Below, one piece after another: positions 2,856 through 10,797 of a DNA stretch of 64,000 bases (position 1 is its first letter; each line of letters starts with the position of its first letter). The stretch is from Candidatus Methanoxibalbensis ujae (GTDB lineage: Archaea; Halobacteriota; Syntropharchaeia; Alkanophagales; Methanospirareceae), in contig JAOQIN010000006.1 of assembly GCA_026134085.1 (NCBI GenBank), positions 1 through 64,000 on the forward strand, read 5' to 3'. Below the pieces are notes generated by a model, which saw only the letters and a list, made by a program, of their open reading frames with translations, made no database searches and was not told where the DNA came from. Both the position numbers and the translations under genes were made by a program.

Positions 2856-2909
2856 ATCCCACCACCAATCTCACGCGCCACGCGATCCTCGCTGCGATGC
2901 ATCATGCAT

Positions 2910-3010
2910 CTTCCCTCATCTCTCCACTCTCTCATCTATCCGCTCCATCATCTCCTCGCTCCATTATCTCTCCTCTCTCTCATCTATCCACTCCATCATC
3001 TCTCCACTCC
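2910..3010. repeat. Degenerate pyrimidine-rich repeat (ctctctcatctatccrctccatcatctc...)
   Basis: Two near-identical copies of 'ctctcatctatccRctccatcatctc' separated by related sequence. Confidence 0.75.
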
Positions 3011-3322
3011 AAGAAGAATGGACAGAACGCTTTTCACAGCATCTTCATATCTCTCAAGTGCACGCTCCTTTCTCGCTTTCGCCTCTTCCATTGCCTCGGC
3101 AATTATCTTTTCCTTCTCAGCCTCTCCCTCCTGCACGAATCTCCGCATTATATCCTCCGCCATCTTACGCTCCTCCTCGTGTGCCCGTGCTTTCATCTGC
3201 CTGATGGTTTCCTCAGCATCCTTCAGAATCCTCGCAGCCTCCTCTCTGGCATCACTCACAATCCTTCTGGCTTCCTCCTCACACGCAATTATCTGTTTGA
3301 TTGCATCCACAGCATCTGCCAT
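2996..3322 (-). CDS. ahaH: V/A-type ATP synthase subunit H (AhaH-like coiled coil)
   Basis: 'AIKQIIACEEEARRIVSDAREEAARILKDAEETIRQMK...'; same strand and directly upstream of subunit E. Confidence 0.75.
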   Translation of the reverse strand: MADAVDAIKQIIACEEEARRIVSDAREEAARILKDAEETIRQMKARAHEEERKMAEDIMRRFVQEGEAEKEKIIAEAMEEAKARKERALERYEDAVKSVLSILLGVER

Positions 3323-3335
3323 TTCCTATAAATTT

Positions 3336-3935
3336 ATGCAAAATAAAAGAAATGCGACAGTGAAAATCATATCCATTGTCGGGGAGAAGAACTCAGGAAA
3401 GACATCGGTGATTTCTCAGCTCATACCTCGCCTCCTCAGATACGGCAGAGTTGGCTGCATAAAACATGCTGAGCATCTTGATGTCCCGCATGACGGGAAA
3501 CGCCGGAGCATGAAAATCGTGATGGGCAGCGACAGTAATAAAGACACGGAACGCATGCTTTCAGCAGGTGCTGATGTCGTCGTAGGCATCACCGAGGATA
3601 TGATGATGTGCATGCGCAAACTGAAGCAAAATGATGAGGTGACGGAAGCAACACTGATCACAGAAAAAATAAGGATGCAGCGAACGGAAGATATGCTGGA
3701 GAGATCACTTGATGTGATGAGATGTGAATGCGTTGATTTTGTCATTGTTGAGGGATTCAAAAGAAGCAAAATTCCGAAAATTGTTATAAGCAAAGATAAC
3801 AGCGGCATTTATGAGAATGTTGTCATGCACCTGCCCCCCTCACATTTTGAAGAAAAAGATGAAAACAACAGCGCCATTGATGAGGAGAAACTGGAGGATA
3901 TCATCAGTCTGATACTCTCCATTCCCGACTGGTGA
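3336..3935 (+). CDS. mobB: Molybdopterin-guanine dinucleotide biosynthesis protein B
   Basis: 'IISIVGEKNSGKTSVISQLIPRLLRYGRVGCIKHAEH' P-loop, 'CVDFVIVEGFKRSKIPKIVI'; in-frame ATG at 3336 chosen over the longer ORF. Confidence 0.85.
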   Translation: MQNKRNATVKIISIVGEKNSGKTSVISQLIPRLLRYGRVGCIKHAEHLDVPHDGKRRSMKIVMGSDSNKDTERMLSAGADVVVGITEDMMMCMRKLKQNDEVTEATLITEKIRMQRTEDMLERSLDVMRCECVDFVIVEGFKRSKIPKIVISKDNSGIYENVVMHLPPSHFEEKDENNSAIDEEKLEDIISLILSIPDW

Positions 3936-4094: not shown

Positions 4095-5672
4095 ATGGGA
4101 ATGGGAAGGGATCTGCGAAAGTGGCAGGGAATTGAGCAGGAATTCAGGGTGGGGAAGCCGTTTGAGAGGACCGACATTCAGACGAGCATTGCACTGAGCA
4201 TGAACCTGTTTGATGCGCTGAAAAATCACAAGTTTTTCGGTTACTTGCCCGCGATCATTCATTCAAAGGACTATGATGGATTTTTGAGAAATGGCTCTCG
4301 CATTTATCTGTGCAACTTCTCATTTGAGATCGCAACGCCTGAGTGCAGAAATGCGTATGAACTGCTGAAATACGATAAAGCAATGGAATTTTATGTTCAG
4401 ATAGCAGCTGAGCGAGTTAACAGTCGCGGAGAGAAAATGGAACACGGACATGATGAGAAAATGGAAAAAATGGAGAGTGGCGGAGAGGCTGAGCGCGTGA
4501 GACATGCCGTACAGTGCTGGCGTGCGAACACAGAGCTTCATCCCGCATTCACAAGGGGCACTCATGAGAACTATTCGGTTTCAAGGGATTTCAACAAAGA
4601 GAACTTCATACCTTTTCTGATAATCAAACCAATCTTCTTCGGCGCCGGAGGTTATGTGAGCAAAGCATTTTGCAGCATGAGGGATATGATTGAATCTGCC
4701 GAATATGTGATATCGCCGAGAGCAATAGCGACAAAACACATTTACGGAGGCGCTGGCGTGCGCAAACATCCACTTTTCTCAATAAAAGGAATATCAAACA
4801 TGAGAATACATATAGATTCAGGTGAAGGATTGCGCGTTGAAATTGCAAGATTTCTGAACAACGCGATCACATCATTTGTCATACATGCGATAGAAGAGGG
4901 CATTATAAGAGATGTTGATGGCATAAACGAGCCTGTTGAGACTTTCAGAACGCTCTCAAGAAACACAGAAGGTGACTGGAAGCTCAAAACGAAAAGCGGA
5001 ACGACTATCAATGCTATGGATATTATGAGCTCATACATAGACGCAATAGAAAATCTTTTTGACGAGAAGTCGGCGGATAACCTGGATATATATGCGCTTA
5101 AAACATTTGAGAGGATTCATGATAAGATGAGTATGGGACTGCTTGAGGATGATTTTCTGATGAAAAGCGTTGAATGGCTTCTCAAATTGAATATTATAGA
5201 GAGGGGAAAATTCATTGAACTTGACAGTCTGCGTGAATCTGTTGATTATGCGATGCGGGATGTGCTTGAGAAAGATGCGAATATTATTGATGCAATGAGT
5301 GAGAGAGATAAAATGAGTGATGCGACGGAGGACAGGATGATGAAGATATCCGCGTGCTTCGCGTTTTCAAATGTCTGTGATGAAGATTTTTACGAGAGTG
5401 TTGCCTGCTGCGCAGGCGTTGAGCGCATGCTGACGGATGAGGAGATAGGGGAGTCTCTCATTTATCCGCCTCCAGAGTCAAGGGGTGCGCTTCGTGTTAT
5501 GCTGCTGGATGCGCTGAGGGATATTGGAGTTCCTCCTGAAAACATACTGGTGAGGTGGAACAGGATAGTCTGTCCGCCGACGAGAGACAGAGTTGTTGAT
5601 TTTGACGATCTTGACGAGTGGAGTGAGAGGAAGATGCGCGATCTCGTGAAAAGAGTGAGAGAGACTTTTTAG
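4095..5672 (+). CDS. PafA/Dop (Pup-ligase/deamidase) family carboxylate-amine ligase-like protein
   Basis: Collinear with remembered actinobacterial PafA: 'GIEQEFRV', 'FLRNGSRIYLCNFSFEIATPEC...DKA', 'GTHENYSVSRD...FIPFLIIKPIFFGAG', 'NMRIHIDSGEGLRVEIARFLNNAITSFVIHAIEEGI', C-terminal 'TDEEIGESLIYPPPESRGALR'. Confidence 0.8.
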   Translation: MGMGRDLRKWQGIEQEFRVGKPFERTDIQTSIALSMNLFDALKNHKFFGYLPAIIHSKDYDGFLRNGSRIYLCNFSFEIATPECRNAYELLKYDKAMEFYVQIAAERVNSRGEKMEHGHDEKMEKMESGGEAERVRHAVQCWRANTELHPAFTRGTHENYSVSRDFNKENFIPFLIIKPIFFGAGGYVSKAFCSMRDMIESAEYVISPRAIATKHIYGGAGVRKHPLFSIKGISNMRIHIDSGEGLRVEIARFLNNAITSFVIHAIEEGIIRDVDGINEPVETFRTLSRNTEGDWKLKTKSGTTINAMDIMSSYIDAIENLFDEKSADNLDIYALKTFERIHDKMSMGLLEDDFLMKSVEWLLKLNIIERGKFIELDSLRESVDYAMRDVLEKDANIIDAMSERDKMSDATEDRMMKISACFAFSNVCDEDFYESVACCAGVERMLTDEEIGESLIYPPPESRGALRVMLLDALRDIGVPPENILVRWNRIVCPPTRDRVVDFDDLDEWSERKMRDLVKRVRETF

Positions 5673-9716: not shown

Positions 9717-10595
9717 ATGAGGGAGAACTTCAATGAGCGTGCAAACGCGCTCGCGATGGAGTATTGGAGATTGAAACATCTGCTGTCAAAAAAGGATGAT
9801 GAGGAGAGACTTGAGGAGATAGAGCGGCTTCTGGAAAGAGGAATAAGTGGTAAATTGCGTGAAAGACTTGAAGCCGAAGCGCGTGTATTGAGAAAGGATA
9901 GGGAAGAAAGGATGAATGCAATGAAAAATCTTGAGATCATAAGCGGAGAATTGCTTGAGCTGACGGCAGAATTTGCACCTAATTTGGATTTTAATGGCAA
10001 TTTCTTCCCGTATGACAGTGAACATGACCAGCTTTCTGAAGATTTTTTCAGAGCGATCACCGATATTTTTTTTGGAAACCCGTTGCGCAGAATTGAACTG
10101 CGTGATGCTGTGTTCTCTTCTGAAGGCATAAAGGTGAATTCAGATGAATCACCGCTGCGCGTGCTCGACCGTGTGATTTCTCTCATACAGGAGACAGCGA
10201 AGAAGAAAATGGGCATGCAGAACTTGATAGACGACATATGGCGAAGGCTCAGTCAGAACGAATATGCGTTCATAGTTTTGAGCGTGCTCGTGTCCGCGGG
10301 AAGAGCGCTCAGCAAAGAGGAGATAAAGGAGATTTCATGCAGAAGGGACAGCGAATACAAAGAACTTGTGAAGGATTATGACAAAAAGCTGATGGCTGCT
10401 CTGTCTTTCCTCGTGAGCGACGGCTGGGGTCATGATATAGTCCGTGAAAACGGTGGAAAATACGAGATCACCGGATTCGGCGAGTGGATATGGAAAGTAT
10501 GCAACTCGGAAAGAGGTAAGAGAAACAGAAACTCTCAAAACAACGCAGACAGCATGAGCAGTATGCGCAGGATAGTGAGGTTTTTCAGAAGGTGA
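9717..10595 (+). CDS. Hypothetical protein, N-terminal coiled coil and C-terminal winged-helix-like region
   Basis: Long ORF with codon use like its neighbours; 'IVLSVLVSAGRALSKEEIKEIS...AALSFLVSDGWGHDIVRENGGKYEITGFGEWIW' looks wHTH-like. Confidence 0.6.
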   Translation: MRENFNERANALAMEYWRLKHLLSKKDDEERLEEIERLLERGISGKLRERLEAEARVLRKDREERMNAMKNLEIISGELLELTAEFAPNLDFNGNFFPYDSEHDQLSEDFFRAITDIFFGNPLRRIELRDAVFSSEGIKVNSDESPLRVLDRVISLIQETAKKKMGMQNLIDDIWRRLSQNEYAFIVLSVLVSAGRALSKEEIKEISCRRDSEYKELVKDYDKKLMAALSFLVSDGWGHDIVRENGGKYEITGFGEWIWKVCNSERGKRNRNSQNNADSMSSMRRIVRFFRR

Positions 10596-10659
10596 GAACT
10601 CTCTTCTCATCTCTCATGTCTCATATCACATCTCTCTTCTTATCTCGTTTTATCCATAC

Positions 10660-10762
10660 TCGCTCTCCGTCAGTGAAATCTCTCTTCATCCATCTCTCTT
10701 CATCCATATTCGCTCTCCGTCAGTGAACACCGTCAGAGAGAACCGTCAGAGAGAACAGGAGA
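10660..10762. repeat. Short direct repeats (atctctcttcatccat; tcgctctccgtcagtga)
   Basis: 'CTCGCTCTCCGTCAGTGAA' / 'TTCGCTCTCCGTCAGTGAA' and duplicated 'ATCTCTCTTCATCCAT', then two copies of 'CCGTCAGAGAGAAC'. Confidence 0.8.
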
Positions 10763-10797
10763 AAAGTGAAATGAATGATAATAAGTGATGATAAGCG

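Follow-up and report, generated by a model that had tools for sequence, protein, structure and literature searches.

A probable accessory Pup ligase of a putative, apparently undescribed pupylation system in an ANME-1 archaeon

Here we describe PafA2, a PafA-type Pup-ligase paralogue encoded on the forward strand (positions 4095 to 5672) of a 64,000-nucleotide stretch of the genome of Candidatus Methanoxibalbensis ujae, which in its whole length is referred to as the window. We consider the gene probably to encode an accessory Pup ligase serving a pupylation system of this ANME-1 archaeon, a kind of system that has apparently gone unreported in archaea. This reading is built on the family and fold of the protein, a Pup-type operon elsewhere in the genome, the distribution of both, residue changes at the active site and selection on the genes, all documented here from sequence. 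The hosts of the system are organisms central to methane consumption.

Identity and surroundings of the window gene

The open reading frame begins with ATG and specifies a protein of 525 residues, the one Pfam match of which is PF03136 (Pup_ligase; E 1.2e-40, scoring 140 bits where the cut-off is 25). Its TIGRFAM scores, 98 bits for Dop (TIGR03688) and 94 (93.5) bits for PafA (TIGR03686), lie under both equivalog cut-offs (551 bits for PafA), placing it in the PafA/Dop family as neither a standard PafA nor a standard Dop. Dop and PafA chains were the sole significant hits in a phmmer search of the PDB. In a fold search against the PDB with an AlphaFold2 model of the protein (pLDDT 67, pTM 0.72), the best match was the PafA-Pup complex 4bjr (E 8e-19), with Dop 4b0r at 2e-16 and the GCS2-type enzyme YbdK (1r8g) far behind at 5e-4. 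The profile and fold rankings thus rule out membership of GCS2 or GS, a closer kinship to GCS2 being what the initial annotation had named as evidence against its proposal; its recognition of a PafA/Dop-family enzyme in an archaeal genome holds, as do the motifs it had listed (GIEQEF, FLRNGSRIYLC..EIATPEC, THENY and TDEEIGE).

The GhExE, HxN, active-site Arg and strand-6 motifs of the family are all present (GIEQEF, HEN, R237 and HIDSGE). The GhExE Mg/ATP motif, as defined previously (PMC2588565), reads GIEQEF at residues 12-17 (4128 to 4145) and is invariant in our alignment A6. The stretch FLRNGSRIYLC..EIATPEC runs to residue 84, and the catalytic-loop motif SRIYLCNFSFEIATPEC (4296 to 4346) places Cys73 (codon 4311-4313) at the site of the essential Asp of PafA and Dop. 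The strand-4 motif THENY (residues 156-160; 4560 to 4574) provides the HxN of the phosphate/metal contact (PMC2588565) and retains HEN where the PafA of the operon described below reads HES. Further along, the alpha-loop region (4761 to 4790) reads RKHPLFSIKG in place of (S/T)RDEP, a replacement found in the alignment only in the paralogue clade, and is followed by RIHIDSGEGLRVE (4803 to 4841), which comprises the strand-5 Arg and the strand-6 His/acidic motif (PMC2588565), the acid being E, not D (HIDSGE). Motif search located TDEEIGE of the C-terminal domain, with PP after it, at residues 447-453 (5433 to 5453); PafA2 is without the greater part of the insertion that the operon PafA carries in its C-terminal region. 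Dop hallmarks are likewise missing, with Cys in place of Asp, RKHP in the alpha-loop, and no TTxxR...TRD loop.

Upstream of the gene lies mobB, with an NCBIfam match over its cut-off, and downstream a convergent gene for a PD-(D/E)XK nuclease (PF12705; 5685-6467). Both had been correctly named as the nearest genes; the Cas4-like label given to the nuclease corresponds only to a weak match, scoring 31 bits where the cut-off is 65. The mobB reading frame from its first ATG (window 2904-3935) is overlong, its true start probably lying near 3336, and the extra part is antisense to a reverse-strand reading frame (2996-3322) that is V-ATPase-subunit-like. The paralogue of a related archaeon, Methanophagales AOM70-1, also adjoins a convergent PD-(D/E)XK nuclease, 66% identical to that of the window, and no neighbour is common to the window gene and the copy in CR_Bin_179. 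A conserved operon partner across genera was rejected, only the nuclease being common to the window and AOM70-1. As first noted, the window holds no Pup-like reading frame and no proteasome gene: profile and sequence searches of it detected neither a gene for a Pup-like protein or a proteasome subunit nor another member of the PafA/Dop family, and no short partner ending in G[EQ] adjoins PafA2.

The Pup-type operon and its tag

From the lack of a Pup gene nearby it had been argued that the enzyme is Pup-independent, an argument that fails for the genome as a whole (1.99 Mb in 86 contigs, 89% complete and 0.7% contaminated), since it encodes a Pup-like protein, PafA, Dop and an Mpa-like ATPase in one operon, together with a 20S proteasome. 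Two further PF03136 genes stand in tandem on contig C44, in the order DNA polymerase DP2, Hdr-like Fe-S protein, PhoU, AAA ATPase (542 aa), PafA-like protein (599 aa), Dop-like protein (547 aa) and a reading frame of about 100 aa. This last frame closes the operon and ends in ...KKIMPYEIYATAGE, giving the short acidic protein a Pup-like C-terminus, ...IMPYEIYATAGE. A second Pup gene that might serve the window paralogue was considered and rejected, as the host genome has only one Pup-like gene. The two proteasome subunit genes, alpha and beta, map to C2 and C25, unlinked to the operon, and a canonical PAN is also encoded, on C1. For the AAA ATPase, sequence search against the PDB was uninformative because Cdc48 AAA domains dominate the matches. 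In a fold search with a weak model (pLDDT 58), the best 20 solved-structure matches were all Mpa, of the Mpa/ARC type that is marked by a coiled coil and tandem OB barrels, ahead of 26S Rpt subunits. Its C-terminus reads TGMH[FY] in nearly all copies.

The Pup-like protein measures 79-111 aa by first start codon, and is acidic in its N-terminal half but basic and rich in Lys in its C-terminal half. Its tail is nearly invariant (...KKIMPYEIYATSGE), with an SGE or AGE end, and once SGQ, in every copy examined. Its final 22 codons show saturation at synonymous sites (pS 0.89) and hardly any change in the protein (pN 0.04). The sole SGQ-ended protein (L119:7111-7368, the same gene as L045:1827-2084; codon CAG) would need deamidation by Dop and would provide a natural control for Dop function. 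Bacterial Pups span 50-90 aa and terminate in G[EQ] (PMC2588565). The archaeal protein goes unrecognised by the Pfam Pup model, the best match of which in the host genome has E 0.15 and lies at another place, and homology of the tag to bacterial Pup is accordingly unproven. Pupylation in these archaea is a prediction open to checking against proteomes of ANME-1 enrichments already in existence, for which the computed tryptic remnants on Lys are +1338.6166 Da (IMPYEIYATAGE) and +1354.6115 Da (IMPYEIYATSGE).

Catalytic residues, paralogue lineage and predicted function

Bacterial PafA depends on an Asp within the loop ..RLYLDVGSHPEYAT.., the D57N variant of M. tuberculosis being inactive (PMC5358908), and this conserved Asp is said to be common to PafA and Dop (PMC12288473). 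The residue, D64 in C. glutamicum and D57 in M. tuberculosis, falls in an ungapped alignment of the operon PafA with 4b0t (D) and 4bjr (N at the same site), in which the archaeal enzyme reads RIYICTGGHLEIATPEC. Cys occupies the site in all 55 archaeal ligase-type sequences, the window copy included, and Asp in all 45 archaeal Dop-type sequences; one extra Cys-bearing match to the Dop pattern is, judged by its sequence, the ligase-type copy of AOM70-1 on L130. The alpha-loop divides in the same manner, with archaeal Dop retaining TTxxR..NTRDQPHA where archaeal PafA carries TESPSQWPILSxRDEP, and the Dop of C44 has both the Asp and the TTxxR alpha-loop. Two conserved Thr and one Arg of the Dop alpha-loop point into the active site (PMC7947786), and in our reading of the alignment these would be the residues of the archaeal TTxxR. 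The pairing of Asp with TTxxR in the Dop type, and of Cys with the RDEP loop in the PafA type, supports a division of labour between ligase and depupylase.

Given the inactivity of the M. tuberculosis D57N variant, a ligase with Cys at the Asp site may work differently. Tentatively, and at unfavourable odds, ANME-1 pupylation may involve a mechanistically distinct class of ligase in which Cys acts as base or as nucleophile (through a Pup thioester), the window gene being a second such ligase with substrates of its own. If so, this would be a two-ligase Pup system, unlike that of bacteria, in which PafA is the sole Pup ligase. The natural Asp-to-Cys variant furthermore offers a test of the disputed PafA/Dop mechanism.

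Phylogenetic analysis joined the window copy with those of AOM70-1 and CR_Bin_179 in a clade (support 100/99) that in turn joins operon PafA (100/99); it may be sister to all operon PafA (81/68). On these sequence grounds the window gene is the third PafA/Dop paralogue of its genome, derived from the archaeal PafA lineage. In a tree with three bacterial sequences, a clade of archaeal and bacterial PafA was rejected (AU p 5e-4), long branches and the tiny sample allowing no conclusion on root or transfer. Between the window copy and that of AOM70-1, dN is 0.29 and dS 2.6, which denotes purifying selection, and the paralogue evolves about three times faster than operon PafA (dN 0.29 versus 0.11). 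Its occurrence is patchy, in about 7 genomes of several genera, and it has decayed in FWG147 and G312. All three intact copies (window, AOM70-1 and CR_Bin_179) are in genomes having a Pup-like gene, and the one copy found where the Pup-like gene, the AAA and the operon enzymes are all absent, that of G312, is frameshifted.

We infer that the tag is conjugated to proteins and that the AAA ATPase feeds the 20S proteasome. PafA with ATP would phosphorylate the terminal Glu of archaeal Pup, which should be ready for use without deamidation because it ends in -AGE or -SGE, and a substrate Lys would attack the resulting gamma-glutamyl phosphate. Dop would reverse the conjugation and also deamidate the single -SGQ form, and the Mpa-like ring would deliver tagged proteins to the 20S core. 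PafA2 would act on this Pup by identical acyl-phosphate chemistry, as its ATP/Mg and phosphate-contact residues are kept, and a different substrate set is suggested by the replacement of RDEP by RKHP and the absence of most of the C-terminal insertion. That the paralogue may use the same tag on another set of substrates is the weakest step of this scheme, the presumed use of Pup concerning a gene that is unlinked to the operon, patchy, fast-evolving and decayed in some genomes.

Being unlinked and divergent, the paralogue might instead have left the Pup pathway after duplication, to act as a Pup-independent carboxylate-amine ligase that joins a different carboxylate, be it free Glu, a peptide or some other small protein, to an amine. 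Its patchy occurrence and rapid evolution, the changed alpha-loop and the lack, across genera, of any conserved neighbour bar the nuclease common to AOM70-1 would fit such a role. We nevertheless regard it as unlikely: the host genome has a full Pup set, the nearest relatives of the protein are archaeal Pup-operon PafA rather than GCS2, no short G[EQ]-ended partner adjoins the gene, and the sole copy encountered in a genome lacking Pup is disrupted. Quite unlikely, too, is a function in Pup handling other than ligation, with PafA2 acting as a depupylase, a transpupylase or a regulator without activity that vies with PafA for Pup. PafA and Dop have a common fold and chemistry, and Dop becomes a ligase upon alpha-loop changes (PMC7947786); PafA2 has an altered alpha-loop and about equal PafA and Dop profile scores, all of which is consistent with such a function. 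Against it, neither the TTxxR...TRD loop nor the Asp, both retained by archaeal Dop, is present in the protein, and it clusters with archaeal PafA. An accessory ligase using the Pup of the operon is thus the reading we favour.

Distribution and comparison with known systems

Among the relatives of the host, which are named Methanophagales (ANME-1) and Alkanophagales and form an order of 53 genomes here, PafA/Dop homologues (PF03136) were identified in 52 genomes, and a Pup-like gene, by a profile of the short protein, in 48; the remaining 344 genomes of the phylum yielded neither. The order AAA-PafA-Dop-Pup is kept in most genomes. In a few, both Alkanophagales included, the Pup-like gene lies away from the operon and its product still ends in KKKVNKKIMPYEIYATSGE or something close to it; two members of genus g6 (L150, L151) have the gene relocated beside a ribose-phosphate pyrophosphokinase-like gene. 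AAA is present in three of the five genomes without a Pup-like gene, and the operons seen there sit on short contigs. G034 and G312 have neither AAA nor Pup-like gene, and their PF03136 matches are none or fragments only, a joint absence that could mirror one assembly gap, since the genomes are drafts and the genes are linked. PF03136 was not found in four archaeal control genomes. A scan of a contig collection was silent outside the order, the query being two narrow 8-residue patterns, so that absence is not proven. The one match in a collection of phage records was a remote PafA/Dop relative (MT835496.1:43826-44812; 24% identity, E 1e-12) on an unannotated contig from human faeces.

Several individual loci deserve mention. 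The Dop of AOM70-1 appears as two reading frames with a 4-base overlap (L083:8844-10154 and 10151-10786), representing either a real split or an assembly indel, and in G236:C191 the Dop and Pup matches occur twice, inverted and with identical scores, probably as an assembly artefact. This ANME-1 operon also occurs in public records under the titles Candidatus Nitrosotalea and Halobacteria archaeon (L095, L119), organism names that look wrong.

Bacterial contamination, raised as a concern at the outset, or a recent actinobacterial gene transfer, suggested by reports of PafA/Dop from bacteria only, is exceedingly improbable: this reading is refuted by the presence of homologues throughout the order, archaeal genes accompany the contigs (MfnA and Bud32 on C56, PolC DP2 on C44), and the operon enzymes are only about 30% identical to actinobacterial ones.

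The bacterial Pup-proteasome system is found in Actinobacteria and sporadically elsewhere, including Nitrospirae. Pupylation is described as bacterial, its emergence being placed in Actinobacteria, from which it would have reached a small number of further phyla (PMC7947786, PMC12288473). No report of archaeal pupylation was found in the open-access literature (bioRxiv and most subscription journals lying outside this coverage); the system is apparently new, and automatic database annotation of its genes may exist. Like its bacterial counterpart, the archaeal set comprises an AAA of Mpa-like fold, PafA, Dop, an acidic G[EQ]-ended modifier and a 20S proteasome. It differs in being stable across a whole order, in its unlinked 20S genes, in co-occurring with canonical PAN, in a tag that the Pfam Pup model does not recognise and in a Cys-type ligase, and it bears on the origin of Pup.

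At the level of the individual enzyme, the window protein resembles PafA of C. glutamicum (4b0t/4bjr) and M. tuberculosis as a carboxylate-amine ligase of GS fold with GhExE, HxN, Arg and His/acidic motifs and a C-terminal domain. Unlike PafA, to which it is about 18% identical in the fold alignment, it has Cys for Asp and a changed RDEP loop, and its gene, unlike that of bacterial PafA, has an archaeal host and no adjoining pup. With Dop (4b0r, 7oxv) it has the fold and most active-site motifs in common, and it lacks the Asp and the TTxxR loop, both of which are found in the archaeal Dop of C44. GCS2/YbdK (1r8g) belongs to the same superfamily, with a far weaker fold match. The SAMP/Urm1 system, a ubiquitin-like tag with E1-type activation, is unrelated to PafA chemistry. 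SAMP/Urm1 is, for its part, a form of archaeal protein tagging linked to proteasomes (PMC4895103, PMC4569737). If complete in nearly every ANME-1 and Alkanophagales genome, the Pup-type set would constitute a second proteasome-tagging route in archaea beside SAMP/Urm1.
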